Assembly (NCBI GenBank): GCA_016790515.1 | Contig: JAEUOY010000092.1 | Location: 1 to 38,741, forward strand | DNA: 38,741 nt | Origin: Burkholderiaceae bacterium | GTDB taxonomy: Bacteria; Pseudomonadota; Gammaproteobacteria; Burkholderiales; Burkholderiaceae_C | Direction: 5' to 3' | Part shown: positions 26,493 through 34,259 of the stretch, piece after piece | How positions within the stretch are numbered: the stretch's first letter is position 1 | How the letters are laid out: every line of letters begins with the position of its first letter | The notes under the pieces: model-generated | Told to the model about the DNA's origin: nothing | The model's input: only the letters and a program-made list of their open reading frames with translations | Database searches by the model: none | Position numbers and translations under genes: made by a program

Positions 26493-27695
26493 TCACCAGC
26501 TGACCTCGCGGTCCGGCGTCGCGCCGATCTTGTGGATCGACAGGTCGGCGCCTTCGTACTCCTCCTCGGCCGACAGGCGCAGGCCGATCACCGTCTTCAG
26601 CACGCCGTAGACGACGAAGCCGCCGGCCAGCGCCCAGGCCACGCCCAGCGCGGTGCCGATCAGCTGGGCGCCGAGTGCCACGCCGCCCAGGCCGCCCAGT
26701 GCCTGCGTGCCGAAGATCCCGCAGGCGACGCCGCCCCAGGCGCCGCACAGCCCGTGCAGCGGCCAGACGCCCAGCACGTCGTCGATCTTCCAGCGGTTCT
26801 GCGTCAGCGTGAACATCGAGACGAAGATCGCGCCGGCGACGCCGCCGGTCAGCAGCGCCCCAGCCGGGTGCATCACGTCGGAGCCGGCGCACACCGCGAC
26901 CAGCCCGGCCAGCGGGCCGTTGTAGGCGAAGCCGGGGTCGTTGCGGCCCATCAGCACCGCCACCAGCGTGCCGCCGACCATCGCCATCAGCGAGTTGACC
27001 GCCACCAGGCCCGAGATCTTGTCGATGGTCTGCGCGCTCATCACGTTGAAGCCGAACCAGCCCACCGCCAGGATCCAGGCGCCCAGCGCCAGGAACGGGA
27101 TCGACGACGGCGGGTGCGCACTGACGATGCCGTCGCGGCGGTAGCGCCCGGCGCGCGCGCCCAGCAGCAGCACCGCGGCCAGGCCGATCCAGCCGCCCAC
27201 CGCATGGACCACGACGCTGCCGGCGAAGTCGTGGAACTCGGCGCCGGTGGCGGCCTTGATCCAGCCCTGGACGCCGAAGCGCTGGTTCCAGGTGATGCCC
27301 TCGAACACCGGGTAGATCGCGCCGACCAGCACCGCGGTGGCGATCAGCTGCGGCCCGAAGCGCGCCCGCTCGGCGATGCCGCCCGAGACGATCGCCGGAA
27401 TCGCCGCCGCGAAGGTCAGCAGGAAGAAGAACTTGACCAGTTCGAAGCCGTTTTTCGCCGCCAGCGACTCGGCACCGACGAAGAAGCTGGTGCCGTAGGC
27501 CACCGCGTAGCCGACGAAGAAGTAGGCGATCGTCGACACCGCGAAGTCGACCAGGATCTTCACCAGCGCGTTGACCTGGTTCTTCTTGCGCACCGTGCCC
27601 AGTTCCAGGAAGGCGAAGCCGGCGTGCATCGCGAGCACCATGATGGCGCCCAGCAGGATGAACAGGGCATCGGCGCCCTGCTTGGTCGTGTCCAT
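26493..27695 (-). CDS. amtB: Ammonium transporter AmtB
   Basis: This 400-residue inner-membrane channel of the Amt/Rh family conducts NH3/NH4+. About eleven hydrophobic segments are visible. The twin pore histidines are in FHDFAGSVVVHAVGG and WPLHGLCGAWGG. The N-terminus (about 1-10) has no cleaved signal. The cytoplasmic C-terminal tail (EEEYEGADLSIHKIG) matches the PII-interacting region of the family. The start at 27695 is preceded by AGGAGA at proper distance. No glnK (PII) gene is adjacent, in contrast to the common glnK-amtB operon. A sigma-54 type promoter lies just upstream, as expected for nitrogen control. Confidence 0.95.
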   Translation of the reverse strand: MDTTKQGADALFILLGAIMVLAMHAGFAFLELGTVRKKNQVNALVKILVDFAVSTIAYFFVGYAVAYGTSFFVGAESLAAKNGFELVKFFFLLTFAAAIPAIVSGGIAERARFGPQLIATAVLVGAIYPVFEGITWNQRFGVQGWIKAATGAEFHDFAGSVVVHAVGGWIGLAAVLLLGARAGRYRRDGIVSAHPPSSIPFLALGAWILAVGWFGFNVMSAQTIDKISGLVAVNSLMAMVGGTLVAVLMGRNDPGFAYNGPLAGLVAVCAGSDVMHPAGALLTGGVAGAIFVSMFTLTQNRWKIDDVLGVWPLHGLCGAWGGVACGIFGTQALGGLGGVALGAQLIGTALGVAWALAGGFVVYGVLKTVIGLRLSAEEEYEGADLSIHKIGATPDREVSW

Positions 27696-28174: not shown

Positions 28175-29626
28175 ATGTTGAGGCGATTTCCACGCTGGGT
28201 CCTCGGGCTGATCGCGATCGCCGCGCTGATCCTGGTGCCCTTCGTCGTCCTGCAGCCGAAGAAGGCGCCCGCGCCCGACGCCGCCGCCCGCCTGCCCGTC
28301 AGGGGCACGCACGTCGACCACCATGACATCGTCAAGGGTGTCTTCAAGACCGGCCAGGACGTCACCCGCGCCTGCCTGGCCTGCCACAAGGACGCCGCCG
28401 CCGAAGTGATGAAGACGACACACTGGACCTGGGAGTCCAAGCCGGTCAGCGTGCCCTGGCGCAAGGAGCCGGTGACCATCGGCAAGATCAACCAGATCAA
28501 CAACTTCTGCATCGGCGCGCAGGGCAACGAGAACAAGTGCATGGCCTGCCACGCCGGCTACGGCTGGGAGGCCGGCCGCGCGGCGCAGCAGGCGAATCCC
28601 GAGAACGTCGACTGCCTGGCCTGCCACGCCGATCCCGGCAGCTACGGCAAGGGGCTGTGGGGCAACCCGTCGGACAAGGTGGACCTGCTGGCGGCGGCGC
28701 GCAGCGTGCGCGCGACCACCCGCGAGAACTGCGGCAAGTGCCACTTCGACGGCGGCGGCGGCAACGGCGTCAAGCACGGCGACCTCGACGAGAGCCTGTA
28801 CTTCCCCGGCCGCTCGCTGGACGTGCACATGGGCGGCAAGCACAAGCTGCAGTGCAGCGACTGCCATGTCGCGCGCAAGCACCAGATCCTCGGCCGCATC
28901 ATCGCCGACAACTACACGATCGACCCGGCCGAGCAGGTGTCCTGCGAGCAATGCCACAAGGGGGGGATCCACAAGGACGAACGCATCGCGACGCACCTGA
29001 AGGCGGTGGCCTGCCAGACCTGCCACATCCCGGCGATCGCGGTCGAAGAGCCGACCAAGGTCGCCTGGGACTGGTCGCAGGCCGGCCAGCAGGGGCGCAA
29101 GGACGACCACTACACCTACCTGAAGATCAAGGGCGAGTTCAGCTACGAAGCGAACTTCGCGCCGACCTACCTCTGGTTCAACGGCAACAACGAGTACCGC
29201 TACCTGCTGGGCGACAAGATCAGCCCGAGCGGGCCCACCTACATCAACAAGCCGGCCGGCGCGATCACCGACCCGTCGGCGCGCATCTTCCCGTTCAAGC
29301 TGCACGTCGCCAGGCAGCCCTTCGACAAGGTGCACCGCCACCTGCTGCAGCCGGTGACCGCCGGCAAGGACGGCTACTGGACCACCTTCGACTGGGACAA
29401 GGCCTTCGCGCTGGCGGTGCCGATCACCGGGCTGGCCTACAGCGGCCAGTACGGCTTCACCGAGACCCGCATGTACTGGGCCAGCTCGCACATGGTGCAG
29501 TCGGCCGACAAGGCGCTGCCCTGCGACGCCTGCCACTCGGCCACCGGCAAGCCGGGCCGATTGGACTGGGCGGCGCTGGGCTACTCCGGCGACCCGATCC
29601 AGTGGGGCGGGAGGAAGCTGCCATGA
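28175..29626 (+). CDS. Octaheme c-type cytochrome, tetrathionate reductase family
   Basis: This 483-residue periplasmic multiheme cytochrome is held by an N-terminal hydrophobic segment (about 6-26). It has eight CXXCH heme sites, at C67, C122, C147, C186, C227, C257, C280 and C450. The number, spacing and tail match the octaheme tetrathionate reductase (OTR) family of Shewanella, which reduces tetrathionate, and in vitro also nitrite and hydroxylamine, at a lysine-ligated heme. K121, right before the second site (NKCMACH), is visible, though I cannot assign the ligand. I chose the ATG at 28175 because it opens with a basic-hydrophobic leader; an upstream ATG at 28058 gives an implausible Arg-rich N-terminus. 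Its stop overlaps the next gene in an ATGA. Confidence 0.9.
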   Translation: MLRRFPRWVLGLIAIAALILVPFVVLQPKKAPAPDAAARLPVRGTHVDHHDIVKGVFKTGQDVTRACLACHKDAAAEVMKTTHWTWESKPVSVPWRKEPVTIGKINQINNFCIGAQGNENKCMACHAGYGWEAGRAAQQANPENVDCLACHADPGSYGKGLWGNPSDKVDLLAAARSVRATTRENCGKCHFDGGGGNGVKHGDLDESLYFPGRSLDVHMGGKHKLQCSDCHVARKHQILGRIIADNYTIDPAEQVSCEQCHKGGIHKDERIATHLKAVACQTCHIPAIAVEEPTKVAWDWSQAGQQGRKDDHYTYLKIKGEFSYEANFAPTYLWFNGNNEYRYLLGDKISPSGPTYINKPAGAITDPSARIFPFKLHVARQPFDKVHRHLLQPVTAGKDGYWTTFDWDKAFALAVPITGLAYSGQYGFTETRMYWASSHMVQSADKALPCDACHSATGKPGRLDWAALGYSGDPIQWGGRKLP

Positions 29627-32349
29627 GGTCCTGGACTCGCGCCCTGGGCATGGGCCTGCTGGCGGGTCTTGCCGCACTGGCCAGCGTGAACGCGGCCGCC
29701 CCGGCGGCTGCCGCGGCACAGCCGCCGCTGAAGGCCCTGCACCCCGACTTCGCGCTGGTCGATGCCAGGGGCGTCAACGTGCTCGACAGCGGCCAGCCGG
29801 TGTCGACGATGAAGAGCTGCGGCCAGTGCCACGACACCGGCTTCATCGCCCGCCATGCCTTCCATGTCGACCTGGGCCTGGCGTCGTACAAGCCCTCGGC
29901 GACGACCTGGGATGCCAGCCCCGGCCCGTTCGGCCGCTGGGACCCGCTGCGCTACCGCTTCCTGACCCAGGCCGGCGACGAACGCATCGACCTGTCCACG
30001 CCCGACTGGCTGATGCGCCATGGCGACCGCGTGGTCGGCGGCGGCCCGGCCACCACCTCGCGCGCCGGCCGGCCGCTGGCCACGCTGACGCCGAGCGCCG
30101 GCGATCCCGAGACCTCTTGGCTGGCTGCCAGCGGCCAGCGCGAGGCCTGGAACTGGGCCGAGTCCGGCACGATGGAAGTGAACTGCTTCCTCTGCCATCT
30201 GGAGCGGCCCAACCTGGCCGCGCGCAGCGCGGCGATCCGCGCCGGCCGCTTTGCCGATGCCAACACCGCCACGCTGACCGGGCTGGGCCTGGTCGAGGCC
30301 GGCGCGAAGGGCTGGGCCTGGAACCGCGCCGCCTTCACCACGCAGGGCCTCGTCGACAGCCGGCGCCTGGGACTGCAGGACCCGACCAACGCCAACTGCG
30401 CCGCCTGCCATGGCGAGGTGCATCCGGCCAGCGCCGCGCCGCTGCGCATCGGCGCCTGCGACCTGGACCAGCCGCAGACCGCCACCACCGGCCAGGTGAT
30501 GGCCTCGCAGCGCCTCAACGCGTCGGGCGTCAACCTGGCGGGCAAGGCCCAGCTGCACCGGTCCTGGGACATCCACGCCGAGCGCCAGCTGCAGTGCACC
30601 GACTGCCACCATGCGCTGAACAACCCGGCCCATGTCAACGACGCCAAGGGCCGCAACCCGGCGCACCTGCGCTACGACCCGCGCACGCTCGACATCGGGA
30701 AGTACCTGCAGCGGCCCGACCACAACTTCGCGCGCGGCCCGAGCGCGCAGGTCGACCTGGCGCCCGAGACCCAGGGCACGATGCGCCGTTGCGAGAACTG
30801 CCACGACGCAGCGACCAGCCACGGCCCCTGGCTGCCCTATGTCGAGACGCACATGGCCACGCTGGCCTGCGAGAGCTGCCACATCCCGAAGATGCACGCG
30901 CCGGCGATCCAGTCCTACGACTGGACCGTGCTGCGCGCCGATGGCCAGCCGGCGCAGGGCTGCCGCGGCGTCGACGGCGTGCCCGGCGACGTGCGCTCGC
31001 TGGTGACCGGCTTCGAGCCGGTGCTGCTGAAGCGCAGCGACCCGCAGGGTGCTGCGCTGCTGGCCCCCTACAACCTGATCACCAGCTTCTACTGGGTCTA
31101 CGACGACGCCAGGGGCCACAGGCGCCCGGTGCGGCTGGCCGACCTGAAGGCCGCGTTCCTGGACGGCGGCCGCCACGCCGCCGCCATCGTCGCTGCCTTC
31201 GACCGCGACGGCGACGGCCAGCTCGGCGCCGCCGAGCTGCGCATCGACACGCCGCAGAAGGAGGCCGCGGTGAAGGCGCGGCTGGCCGCGCTGGGTCTGA
31301 ACAACTTGCGCATCGAAGGCCAGGTGCAAGCCTTCGGCATCCACCACAACGTCACCCGCGGCGAGCATGCGCTGAACGATTGCCGCGCCTGCCACGACGC
31401 CGGATCGCGGGTGACCCAGGGCCTGCAGCTGGCTGGCTTCGCCCCGGTGCTGCCGACGCTGGAGGCGCTCAGCAAGGTCGCGGCCAGCGGCGACTTGGTC
31501 CGGCAGGCCGACGGCGCGCTGTTCTACCAGCCGGCACCGGCGCGCGACGGGCTCTATGTCTTCGGCGCCAGCCGGCTGGGCTGGGTCGATGCGATCGGCG
31601 CGCTGGCCTTCGCGGCCACGCTGCTCGGCGTGATCGGCCACGGCGCGCTGCGCTGGCTGGCGTTCAGGAAGCGCCCGCACGACGCGTCGCCGACGCGGCG
31701 GGTGCACATGTACGACGCCTACCGGCGCTTCTGGCACTGGCTGCAGGCCACCAGCATCGTCGCGCTGCTGCTGACCGGTCTGGTCATCCACCGCCCGGAC
31801 ATCTTCGCCGCGATCTCGTTCCCGGCGATGGTCACGCTGCACAACGTGCTGGCGGCGATCCTGGTGGCCAACGCCGCGCTGTCGCTGTTCTACCACCTGG
31901 CCACCGAGCGCATGCAGGAGTACATCCCGCGGCCCTACGGCTTCTTCGACGACGCGATCCGGCAGACGCGGTACTACGTGTCGGGCATCTTCAAGGGCGA
32001 GCCGCACCCGTTCGAGAAGCGCCCCGACGACCGCATGAACCCGATCCAGAAGCTGACCTACTTCGGCATCCTGAACGTGCTGCTGCCGGCGCAGATCGTC
32101 ACTGGCGCGCTGATGTGGGGCGTGCAGCGCTGGCCCGAGCTGGCGGCCTCGCTCGGCGGGCTGCCGCTGCTGGCGCCGCTGCATTCGCTGCTGGCCTGGC
32201 TGTTCGCCTGCTTCATCGTCGGCCATGTCTACCTGACGACGACCGGCACGACGCCGCTGGAGGCGATCCGCGGCATGGTCACCGGCTACGAAGAGGTCGA
32301 GACCCATGGCGCGGCCGGCGCGCAGCGGGACGGCACGGCGGCGCATTGA
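29623..32349 (+). CDS. Heptaheme cytochrome c fused to EF-hand and b561-type membrane domain
   Basis: This 908-residue protein begins with a signal peptide (about 1-33). A periplasmic region with seven CXXCH sites follows: C66, C188, C259, C325, C390, C417 and C587. Between the sixth and seventh sites lies one calcium-binding EF-hand loop, FDRDGDGQLGAAEL (526-539), with Asp at 527, 529 and 531 and Glu at 538. From about 650 the chain enters the membrane: a single segment (652-672), then a four-helix cytochrome b561/b6-like domain (about 700-890) with His candidates H705, H740, H758 and two near the C-terminus (LHSLLAW, VGHVYL) for b hemes. The fusion could move electrons between quinol and periplasmic hemes. 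It is translationally coupled to the octaheme gene by an ATGA overlap. Confidence 0.88.
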   Translation: MRSWTRALGMGLLAGLAALASVNAAAPAAAAAQPPLKALHPDFALVDARGVNVLDSGQPVSTMKSCGQCHDTGFIARHAFHVDLGLASYKPSATTWDASPGPFGRWDPLRYRFLTQAGDERIDLSTPDWLMRHGDRVVGGGPATTSRAGRPLATLTPSAGDPETSWLAASGQREAWNWAESGTMEVNCFLCHLERPNLAARSAAIRAGRFADANTATLTGLGLVEAGAKGWAWNRAAFTTQGLVDSRRLGLQDPTNANCAACHGEVHPASAAPLRIGACDLDQPQTATTGQVMASQRLNASGVNLAGKAQLHRSWDIHAERQLQCTDCHHALNNPAHVNDAKGRNPAHLRYDPRTLDIGKYLQRPDHNFARGPSAQVDLAPETQGTMRRCENCHDAATSHGPWLPYVETHMATLACESCHIPKMHAPAIQSYDWTVLRADGQPAQGCRGVDGVPGDVRSLVTGFEPVLLKRSDPQGAALLAPYNLITSFYWVYDDARGHRRPVRLADLKAAFLDGGRHAAAIVAAFDRDGDGQLGAAELRIDTPQKEAAVKARLAALGLNNLRIEGQVQAFGIHHNVTRGEHALNDCRACHDAGSRVTQGLQLAGFAPVLPTLEALSKVAASGDLVRQADGALFYQPAPARDGLYVFGASRLGWVDAIGALAFAATLLGVIGHGALRWLAFRKRPHDASPTRRVHMYDAYRRFWHWLQATSIVALLLTGLVIHRPDIFAAISFPAMVTLHNVLAAILVANAALSLFYHLATERMQEYIPRPYGFFDDAIRQTRYYVSGIFKGEPHPFEKRPDDRMNPIQKLTYFGILNVLLPAQIVTGALMWGVQRWPELAASLGGLPLLAPLHSLLAWLFACFIVGHVYLTTTGTTPLEAIRGMVTGYEEVETHGAAGAQRDGTAAH

Positions 32350-32363
32350 CGAAGGAAACCGAC

Positions 32364-32909
32364 ATGGCTACCCAGTGGTTCAGATCGATCTTCAGCCGGC
32401 CGCCGAAGGCCTACGTTCATCCCTACCTGGCCGGGGCGGTGCTGGGGGTGGTGCTGTTCCTCGCCTTCCTGCTGACCGGCAACGGGCTCGGCTCCTCGGG
32501 GGCGACCAGCCGCATCGACGCCGCGCTGGTCGACCTCGTCGCGCCGGCACATGTCGACAGGAACCCCTACCTGCTGAAGATGGCCGGCGGCGACAAGAAC
32601 CCGCTGGACGACTGGATCGTGCCGGTGTTCTTCGGCGCGCTGCTCGGCGGCTTCAGCTCGGGCGCGCGCAACGGCCGCCTGGGGCTGACGACGACCAAGG
32701 GGCCGAGCATCTCGAACCGCACGCGCTGGCTGATGTCGTTCATCGGCGGCGTGATCTTCCTCTATGGCGCGCGCATGGCGCGCGGCTGCACCTCGGGCCA
32801 GGCGCTGTCCGGCGGCGCCACGCTGGCCGCCGGGTCGTGGGTGATCATGCTGGCGATCTTCGGCAGCGCCTACCTGCTGGCCTATTTCGTGCGCCGGCTG
32901 TGGAACTGA
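32364..32909 (+). CDS. YeeE/YedE-family membrane protein (thiosulfate-transport type)
   Basis: This 181-residue integral membrane protein belongs to the YeeE/YedE (DUF395, TsuA-like) family; TsuA-type members import thiosulfate, and others handle sulfur compounds. Hydrophobic segments lie at about 21-40, 85-98, 124-137 and 155-177. The family motif with the pore cysteine is present as ARGCTSGQALSGG (139-151) with C142. The protein is half the size of full-length TsuA, so it likely pairs with the second YeeE-type protein encoded next, making two half-units. It begins 14 bases after the heptaheme gene; a GAAGGAAA site precedes the ATG. Confidence 0.88.
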   Translation: MATQWFRSIFSRPPKAYVHPYLAGAVLGVVLFLAFLLTGNGLGSSGATSRIDAALVDLVAPAHVDRNPYLLKMAGGDKNPLDDWIVPVFFGALLGGFSSGARNGRLGLTTTKGPSISNRTRWLMSFIGGVIFLYGARMARGCTSGQALSGGATLAAGSWVIMLAIFGSAYLLAYFVRRLWN

Positions 32910-32957
32910 CGTGAAACAGCCGACGGCGAACCCGCCGGACCACCCGAGGAGCGGCGC

Positions 32958-34259
32958 ATGACCTTCCCGCTGGACGCCTTCACGGCCGTGAGCGCCGCGA
33001 ACCCCTGGACCTACCTGCTGTTCGGCTGCATCGGCTTCGCCTTCGGCTACACGCTGGAGATGGCCGGCTTCGGCGACTCGCGCAAGCTCGCGGCGCAGTT
33101 CTACTTCAAGGAACTGACCGTGCTGAAGGTCATGTTCACCGCGATCGCGGTGGCACTGACGCTGCTGTTCGGCACGGTCGGCCTCGGGCTGATCGACTTC
33201 AGCCATGTCTGGGTCAACCCGACCTACCTGGGCTCGGGCCTCGTCGGCGGCCTGATCATGGGCGTCGGCTTCATCGTCGGCGGCTTCTGCCCGACCACCT
33301 CGCTGGCCTCGGCATCCACCGGCAAGATCGACGGCATGCTGTTCATGCTGGGCGGCTTCGTCGGCGCCTTCCTGTTCGGCGAGACCGAAAGCCATTTCGA
33401 CCACTGGTACAACAGCGCCGGCTACTACGGCCGGCTGACGCTGGACGAGGTCTTCGGCGTCTCGGCGCCGGTGCTGGTGCTGGTGATCGTGCTGGTCGCG
33501 CTGTTCATGTTCTGGGGCGCCGAGCAGCTCGAGCGCATCATCGGCGGCAAGGACTTCAGCCGCGAGCCGGCCGCGCGCAAGGCCGGCGCCGTCGTCCTGG
33601 TCGCCGCGGCGCTGGCGGTGCTGGCGATCGGCAGCCCGACGCTGGAGGACCGCTACCAGCGGCTGAGCTTCAAGCGCAGCGAAGTCGTCACGCAGGCCGA
33701 TGGCCGGCCGCAGACGGTGAACCGTGTCTACACCGCCGACGAGATGCTGGCCAGGCGGCTGGTCTTCATCTCGCCGGCCGAGGCCTACAAGGCGCGCTAC
33801 CAGCAGGCGATCAAGCCGGTCTACCTGGACGTCCGCAGCGAGTCCGACCACAACCTCTACCACCTGGCCGGCTCGGTCAACGTGCCGCTGGCGCGGCTCG
33901 ACCGGATCGTCCCCGAGCTGCTGAGCGAGCCGCCGGCCAACACCGTGTTCATCACCATCGGCAACGACGAGGCGGCCGCGGTTCGGGCCTGGAAGCTGCT
34001 GGCGGCCTCCCGGGTGCAGAACGTCTACATCCTGGAAGGCGGCGTCAACCGCTGGATCGCCACCTTCGGCGCCGACGATGCCGCGCTGCAGCCGCTGGCC
34101 AACGCCGGCGACGACCAGCTGCGCTATGCCTTCAGCGCGGCGCTGGGCGATCGCTACAAGTCCTGCTCGCCCGATCCGCGGCACCACGAGAACCTCGAGT
34201 TCCAGCCCCGCATCGTGCTGCAGCTCAAGCGCGACAAGTCGGGCGGCGGCTGCGGCTGA
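32958..34259 (+). CDS. YeeE/YedE-rhodanese fusion with Cys-less rhodanese loop and GGGCG tail
   Basis: This 433-residue protein has an N-terminal YeeE/YedE half (about 1-225) with hydrophobic segments near 15-35, 55-79, 91-111, 124-141, 168-186 and 208-225. Its pore motif is GGFCPTTSLASAS (108-120), with C111. A rhodanese-like domain follows (about 270-385: YLDVRSESDHNLYHLAGSVNVP and the ILEGGVNRWIATF end). The catalytic loop, normally C-x-x-G-x-R/S, reads TIGNDE (333-338), so the sulfur-accepting cysteine is absent. Cysteines reappear at C403 and at C432 in the extreme C-terminus KSGGGCG, which resembles the SoxY carrier arm GGCGG. It follows the other YeeE gene by 48 bases and closes the operon. 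Confidence 0.88.
   Translation: MTFPLDAFTAVSAANPWTYLLFGCIGFAFGYTLEMAGFGDSRKLAAQFYFKELTVLKVMFTAIAVALTLLFGTVGLGLIDFSHVWVNPTYLGSGLVGGLIMGVGFIVGGFCPTTSLASASTGKIDGMLFMLGGFVGAFLFGETESHFDHWYNSAGYYGRLTLDEVFGVSAPVLVLVIVLVALFMFWGAEQLERIIGGKDFSREPAARKAGAVVLVAAALAVLAIGSPTLEDRYQRLSFKRSEVVTQADGRPQTVNRVYTADEMLARRLVFISPAEAYKARYQQAIKPVYLDVRSESDHNLYHLAGSVNVPLARLDRIVPELLSEPPANTVFITIGNDEAAAVRAWKLLAASRVQNVYILEGGVNRWIATFGADDAALQPLANAGDDQLRYAFSAALGDRYKSCSPDPRHHENLEFQPRIVLQLKRDKSGGGCG

Follow-up and report, generated by a model that had tools for sequence, protein, structure and literature searches.

The described systems closest to the locus reported here are the octaheme tetrathionate reductase (OTR) of Shewanella oneidensis (structure 1SP3), the heptaheme electron conduit MmcA of Methanosarcina acetivorans, the YeeE-type proteins TsuA, SoxT and PmpA/PmpB, and SoxY of the SoxYZ carrier. 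The second heme of OTR is given as catalytic and lysine-ligated in a passage of PMC11024163, transport of free thiosulfate by YeeE/TsuA is stated in a passage of PMC11073785, Cys91 and Cys293 of Spirochaeta TsuA are reported to be indispensable, and according to excerpts of PMC11582611 the same two are kept in PmpB and PmpA, which have one cysteine apiece. Against these systems a four-gene unit was compared, located at positions 28175..34259 of contig JAEUOY010000092.1 from a Burkholderiaceae bacterium (GCA_016790515.1), of which positions 1-38,741 were analyzed (this whole stretch is called the window). The four genes are a real, conserved unit, and we put at roughly 55% the probability that they form one extracytoplasmic, quinone-linked machine acting on sulfur bound to a protein arm, which would be traded with a split YeeE channel in either direction. 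All four genes had been proposed in a first-pass annotation made from the letters of the window, and all are present, with small coordinate refinements, as listed below.

28175..29626, plus strand: gene 1, OTR-family octaheme cytochrome c, 483 amino acids, with an N-terminal hydrophobic helix that may be a signal or an anchor
28508..28510, plus strand: Cys112 of gene 1, aligned with the residue taken to be Cys64 of 1SP3; Cys or TGA (possibly selenocysteine) in the relatives compared
28772..28774, plus strand: Lys200 of gene 1, aligned with the residue taken to be Lys153 of 1SP3, the heme 2 ligand
29623..32349, plus strand: gene 2, heptaheme c domain and b561-type membrane cytochrome, 908 amino acids
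31711..32286, plus strand: b561/PhsC-like membrane domain of gene 2 (PF01292, residues 697-888)
32364..32909, plus strand: gene 3, half-size YeeE/YedE of the C-terminal-half type (PmpA-like), 181 amino acids, PF04143 profile 172-309
32787..32789, plus strand: Cys142 of gene 3, aligned with Cys293 of StTsuA, kept in 49/50
32958..34259, plus strand: gene 4, half-size YeeE of the N-terminal-half type (PmpB-like) with an extra helix, a rhodanese-like domain and a C-terminal cysteine arm, 433 amino acids, PF04143 profile 11-196
33288..33290, plus strand: Cys111 of gene 4, aligned with Cys91 of StTsuA, kept in 47/47
33804..34061, plus strand: rhodanese-fold domain of gene 4 without the catalytic cysteine (I334), PF00581 4.8e-11
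34227..34256, plus strand: C-terminal arm KRDKSGGGCG of gene 4, its Cys432 invariant in 47/47 by alignment; predicted local distance difference test scores of its final two blocks, 54 and 40

Contigs were searched with gene 2 by peptide patterns, a scan that reaches close relatives only, and 52 loci were obtained (the tallies exclude L031, which is the window's own genome, and open reading frames (ORFs) below the length limits). All four genes stand in identical order in 44 of the 52 loci, so the grouping, whose conservation the first-pass annotation had suggested checking, is not chance; rarely adjacent homologues, which that annotation had counted as evidence against itself, were not found, the four genes being nearly always adjacent. 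Among the 44, the OTR is cut at a contig edge in L036, L052, L067 and L069 and is gapped by Ns in L035, and gene 2 of L080 and gene 3 of L055 are frame-broken; seven further loci end at a contig edge (L068, L071, L073, L077, L079, L082 and L084), that of L079 with its OTR split over two frames, and L086 holds a different OTR-b561 pair. Chloroflexota account for 42 of the 52 records, and the others come from Burkholderiales, Gammaproteobacteria, Rubrivivax, Parasulfuritortus, Lysobacterales, Vibrio, NOR5-3, Neomarinimicrobiota and a Desulfobacteraceae metagenome-assembled genome. When gene 4 served as an independent query against 400 sampled Chloroflexota-phylum genomes, 17 scored above 150 bits; of the 16 whose regions were retrieved, 15 hold all parts in order (gene 4 being cut by the contig end in L166), and the seventeenth is L040, likewise ordered. 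In the remaining retrieved region, from G400 (locus L168), genes 2, 3 and 4 are reduced to shortened pieces and the stretch has no OTR, so that it is probably a decayed module. Gene 4 is rare in the host's order: among 399 genomes it is full-length in 2, the host and G264, and present as a contig-edge piece in G271, and the matches in G742 and G800 belong to YeeE pairs of another kind. OTR is commoner there, exceeding the family cut-off in 27 of 300 genomes.

Gene 1 scores 540.6 bits against TIGR04315, above the cut-off of 375, and matches 1SP3 by phmmer at 1.2e-119, which bears out the OTR-family assignment made earlier. The eight CXXCH sites were counted again in its translation and recur in 43 of 44 OTR ORFs longer than 440 amino acids (L086 included), the exception being L035. 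In these respects gene 1 resembles 1SP3, as it does in keeping the equivalents of two residues whose numbers we take to be Lys153 (the heme 2 ligand) and Cys64: Lys200 aligns with Lys153, so that by sequence alignment the lysine ligand about which the first-pass annotation had asked is retained, and the two positions are Lys and Cys in all 104 OTRs compared (L035 excluded). Unlike 1SP3, the module OTRs make up a clade of their own, and 41 of 43 have Asn at the Asp150 position, where most other OTRs have Asp. A quick maximum-likelihood tree built from 106 OTRs puts the 44 from the module on one side of one branch (Shimodaira-Hasegawa-like approximate likelihood-ratio test, SH-aLRT, 100), and this clade sits beside Shewanella 1SP3 (support 90). 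Clustering with the hydroxylamine or nitrite reductase octahemes, which had been named as the outcome that would speak against the assignment, was not seen in a comparison made by family scores, with no tree of HAO or NrfA built: no NCBIfam model of HAO or NrfA type matched gene 1 at E 0.001, 1SP3 was its sole PDB match at E 1, and an enzyme of that type was rejected on this basis.

The residue at position 64 was followed further in the phylum of a Desulfobacteraceae genome, where 91 of 395 genomes gave an OTR-like match; of about 115 match rows, 78 exceed the family cut-off, and 30 of the 78 carry one TGA (counted by eye). Thirty loci were read from this phylum, with the TGA position read in 13 of the 30 TGA rows: position 64 is Cys in 17 loci and an in-frame TGA in 13, each of the 13 TGAs falling exactly there, and the Lys153 position is Lys in 30/30. 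The in-frame TGA probably encodes selenocysteine. Exchange of cysteine and selenocysteine usually indicates a catalytic thiol, and the alternation at position 64 therefore suggests that the invariant OTR cysteine is probably catalytic. An OTR is also listed as a GenBank-annotated selenoprotein in a 2026 review (PMC13188914), in an entry that gives no motif.

The ATGA overlap that joins gene 1 to gene 2 was confirmed in the coordinates, as were the seven CXXCH sites and the b561 domain of gene 2 (by count, and by PF01292 at 2.3e-27); seven sites are found in 47/47 gene 2 ORFs longer than 650 amino acids. The EF-hand reported earlier is visible in the translation as the EF-hand-like stretch FDRDGDGQLGAAEL, in which D527, G532 and E538 are nearly invariant among 45 aligned sequences. 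The membrane b561 domain makes the proposed quinone linkage of gene 2 likely; in Foldseek the b561 part of the predicted model matches 6g94 (E 1.3e-3) and chain C of 1kqf (E 2.7e-3), and the top NCBIfam match of the protein is the PhsC model NF011582 at 140.2 bits, below the cut-off of 204, which leaves gene 2 outside that family. The heptaheme part scores 48.8 bits against TIGR04314 and 27.4 against TIGR04315, and gene 2 aligns with the OTR profile in hhalign at a probability of 98.9 over 128 columns; given the hhalign result and the higher score on the MmcA model than on the OTR model, the domain is probably related to OTR without being catalytic itself. Like MmcA it has one heme fewer than OTR; unlike MmcA it lies far below the TIGR04314 cut-off of 250, is fused to b561 and is bacterial.

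Genes 3 and 4, already recognized as two half-size YeeE/YedE proteins, are complementary halves of Sulf_transp PF04143 that jointly keep TsuA Cys91 and Cys293, which makes them a split YeeE pair of the PmpAB type. As in PmpA and PmpB, each half has one of these conserved cysteines, and TsuA Cys22 has no counterpart in the gene 4 alignment; in contrast to PmpA and PmpB, the module halves are longer, and the PmpB-type half adds a helix, a degenerate rhodanese domain and a cysteine arm. Single-sequence searches of the PDB with the YeeE halves gave nothing useful, whereas alignment profiles did match. Half-size YeeE genes with in-frame TGA codons, possibly selenocysteine, were observed in Chloroflexota loci L142-L145 and L151 (one each, two in L142), and a selenocysteine form of YeeE is already listed in an entry of PMC13188914. 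At L174, in another genome of the host's order (about 1004-2472), a Lys/Ala-rich protein whose start resembles a signal and whose end reads KKKKGGC comes after a split YeeE pair and is possibly a separate cysteine-tail carrier for the split YeeE.

The rhodanese-like domain of gene 4 holds up as a fold, through its PF00581 match and a predicted model in which it is rendered with high confidence and its Foldseek matches are rhodaneses (best E 2.1e-3), but not as an enzyme. The active-site loop was located through alignment to 6mxv, and the catalytic position is M in 35, I in 8, V in 3 and L in 1 of the 47 gene 4 proteins; with cysteine there in 0/47, the domain cannot be a normal sulfurtransferase, and gene 4 as a working rhodanese was rejected. 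The cysteine arm that follows was absent from the first-pass annotation. Gene 4 proteins end in GGC in 47/47 (mostly GGGCG, with one GGCGG and one GGCS) behind a variable region, a C-terminal GGC arm of the SoxY type, and ends of the [GS]GC type occur in 2 of 4824 module-locus ORFs other than gene 4, a loose background since most of these are not genes. The sole other position of the soluble part with Cys in at least 5/47 proteins is C403, where it is missing from 16/47, so an internal disulfide for Cys432 is not general. A basic stretch precedes the last helix of gene 4, which would place the rhodanese domain and the arm on the extracytoplasmic side. Gene 4 thus resembles SoxY in its Gly-rich, one-cysteine C-terminal arm and, if this topology holds, in being extracytoplasmic, but it has no SoxY domain (no match to PF13501 or TIGR04488 at E 0.001, by which a SoxY homologue was rejected), and its GGGCG arm sits on a rhodanese fold and is membrane-bound.

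Because of this SoxY-like arm, sulfur bound to the arm becomes a likelier substrate than a free small anion. The chain on tetrathionate, thiosulfate or a related sulfur compound that had been proposed from the letters keeps its OTR, its b561 domain, its split YeeE and its gene order, and a free substrate for it is now less likely. The parts of the machine are established by sequence, and we infer all of the reaction steps. The b561 domain would exchange electrons with quinone, the heptaheme domain would relay them to or from OTR, and OTR would make or break sulfur bonds through its Lys-ligated heme and a catalytic Cys or selenocysteine. The sulfur would not be free, being carried on Cys432 of a swinging arm for which the degenerate rhodanese domain may serve as a docking base, and the arm would trade sulfur with the YeeE channel, at the outer Cys142 and then at Cys111, as proposed for SoxY-SoxT. 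Slightly favored is a reductive direction, in which quinol would drive the release of polythionate or thiosulfate sulfur from the arm and sulfane sulfur would then be imported; it fits the tetrathionate reductase activity reported for OTR, the likeness of the b561 domain to PhsC and the inward transport by YeeE proteins. The module differs from Shewanella, whose OTR works via CymA/STC according to a passage of PMC4484225, in that its OTR is tied to a heptaheme-b561 protein and an armed YeeE.

Neighbors bearing a cysteine arm were also observed beside other OTRs. Sixty-one OTR regions of 3-19 kb were compared. Genomes of the host's order and class supplied 58 of them and named module carriers the other 3, and two regions (L107 and L230) are the module itself. 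A b561 gene is present in 54 of the 61 (L230 included), a YeeE gene in 10 and a rhodanese in 7, and in 19 the gene immediately upstream of OTR, on its strand and separated by a gap of at most 67 nucleotides, encodes a DUF302 protein. These DUF302 proteins have an N-terminal hydrophobic helix and a Gly-rich tail that ends in Cys in 19/19, which makes DUF302 beside OTR a second armed protein, unrelated to gene 4, and such recurring armed neighbors point to a protein-bound substrate. In L117 a true SoxY (TIGR04488, 144 bits) lies about 2 kb past the OTR-b561 genes, and in lucinid symbionts otr adjoins soxYZ according to a passage of PMC11237559. Tentatively, with odds somewhat short of even, the OTRs of the armed clades (module and DUF302-linked) may be thiol- or selenol-dependent heme oxidoreductases for arm-held sulfur, and the module may give Chloroflexota a swinging-arm sulfur cycle that is self-contained and independent of Sox, with the arm built covalently onto its YeeE channel. 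Two further arrangements were observed in these regions: the monoheme cytochromes c of the OTR-YeeE clusters L103-L106, L109, L112, L117 and L209 end in PA[SKG]CS in 8/8, and L105 has the row DUF302-OTR-b561-cytochrome-YeeE-rhodanese-OTR-b561, in which YeeE is full-length, the cytochrome is monoheme and the rhodanese protein has three matched stretches.

Several observations weigh against a machine for arm-bound sulfur. The Shewanella OTR is reported, in a passage of PMC4484225, to reduce free tetrathionate, nitrite and hydroxylamine. The role of the gene 4 arm as a putative sulfur carrier is drawn by analogy, the extracytoplasmic side of the rhodanese domain and arm is argued from charge, and in Foldseek the gene 2 model gave a sensible match through its b561 part only, its heptaheme part having no 1SP3 match. 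Among 20 OTR regions from the Desulfobacteraceae phylum, of which 10 are TGA-type, no same-strand armed neighbor was found; two loose armed-end flags (L280 and L287) are on the opposite strand, and the flanks scanned hold housekeeping or unrelated genes. Most of 31 plain OTR rows likewise have no armed neighbor, so the arm is not needed by all OTRs. The cysteine tail may belong to the DUF302 group and not to the partnership with OTR, the DUF302 proteins compared being those adjacent to OTR. On the side of the machine, the 18 Chloroflexota genomes that have gene 4 (a set including G400) gave SoxY in 0/18 and SoxB over its cut-off in 0/18, and the arm there is therefore not a Sox accessory; against it, 15 Chloroflexota genomes without the module also have neither SoxY nor over-cut-off SoxB. 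A heme-copper oxidase gene is present in 16/18 of the carriers and 13/15 of the non-carriers, with no separation between them, and its presence in most carriers means that nothing favors an anaerobic reductase.

The alternative that survives best is the same machine in reverse, which overlaps the reading preferred here and which we consider possible though rather unlikely: OTR would be a heme-based sulfane dehydrogenase that oxidizes arm sulfur as SoxCD does on SoxY, with electrons passing through heptaheme-b561 to quinone. The usual presence of a heme-copper oxidase gene in the hosts (the same 16/18) is in its favor, as is SoxY in four of five proteobacterial hosts examined (G000, G264, G301 and G303, not G302), and it accords with SoxY-SS as the substrate of SoxCD in a passage of PMC9959259. 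Opposed to it are the b561 of gene 2, whose nearest likeness is to PhsC, a thiosulfate reductase subunit, though under the model cut-off, and the OTR activities given in most of the literature passages available, which are reductions, apart from one mention of OTR as a thiosulfate-oxidizing enzyme in PMC6548844. Somewhat less probable is an ordinary respiration of free tetrathionate or nitrite, in which the YeeE pair would take up the thiosulfate product and Cys432 would be structural, for example in a disulfide; the reported OTR chemistry (PMC4484225) and the carriage of free thiosulfate by YeeE/TsuA (PMC11073785), each as given in the passages cited above, agree with it. It is opposed by the invariance of the tail Cys, which lies in a Gly-rich end modeled with low confidence, by the lack of a general disulfide partner (Cys missing at C403 in 16/47) and by the recurrence of armed partners adjoining OTR.

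A regulatory gene bears on the remaining alternative. More than 600 nucleotides of upstream sequence are available for 44 module loci, a set that includes L082, and 32 of these (31 Chloroflexota and L082) have an ArsR-type gene upstream of OTR on the same strand, whose products have one Cys, invariant in 32/32; one example scores 78.4 bits against the general ArsR model NF033788 (cut-off 55), with a weaker, under-cut-off likeness to TsoR (56.3 bits) and BigR (48.5 bits). A role in detoxifying or sensing sulfane sulfur or sulfite under this regulator, by which the module would clear sulfur stress and not conserve energy, is nonetheless improbable, since the gene is found in none of the seven proteobacterial loci of this set (L035, L037, L038, L039, L060, L083 and L085), the b561-heptaheme chain suggests respiration, and the sulfane sensor SoxR has two conserved Cys (in a passage of PMC11582611) against the one of the module ArsR.

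As for the history of the unit, six proteobacterial OTRs, including that of the window, group together in the OTR tree (support 100) and are nested among Chloroflexota copies, and those of the Vibrio and NOR5-3 modules branch separately near the base. The nesting in this midpoint-rooted tree suggests transfer of the module from Chloroflexota to the window's lineage. The GC content of the module is 0.70 and that of the rest of the window 0.73, and the window's genome, 82% complete, gave three SoxY matches and no SoxB match. Upstream of the module, a divergently oriented ammonium transporter gene was observed at 26493-27695 of the window (TIGR00836, 312.9 bits, below the cut-off of 343.3); Pfam searches of ten flanking ORFs left six without a family, perhaps spurious ORFs, and found no sulfur gene among the other four.

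Consistent with the earlier remark that no published function was known for this combination, literature searches, from whose reach most subscription papers fall, turned up neither a description of the module nor a pairing of DUF302 with an octaheme protein. The exchange of Cys and TGA marks a residue that may do the chemistry of OTR, and the recurring armed neighbors hint at a protein-bound substrate, both hints being directly testable. If the OTRs of the armed clades do act on arm-held sulfur, this would explain the label of OTR as an enzyme of cryptic function. The unit suggests that some bacteria may handle sulfur on an extracytoplasmic protein arm without the usual Sox proteins. The SoxT work, in an excerpt of PMC11582611, leaves open how sulfur on the SoxY arm passes to a YeeE-type channel, and gene 4, as a natural fusion of arm and channel, would provide a ready-made system for this question.

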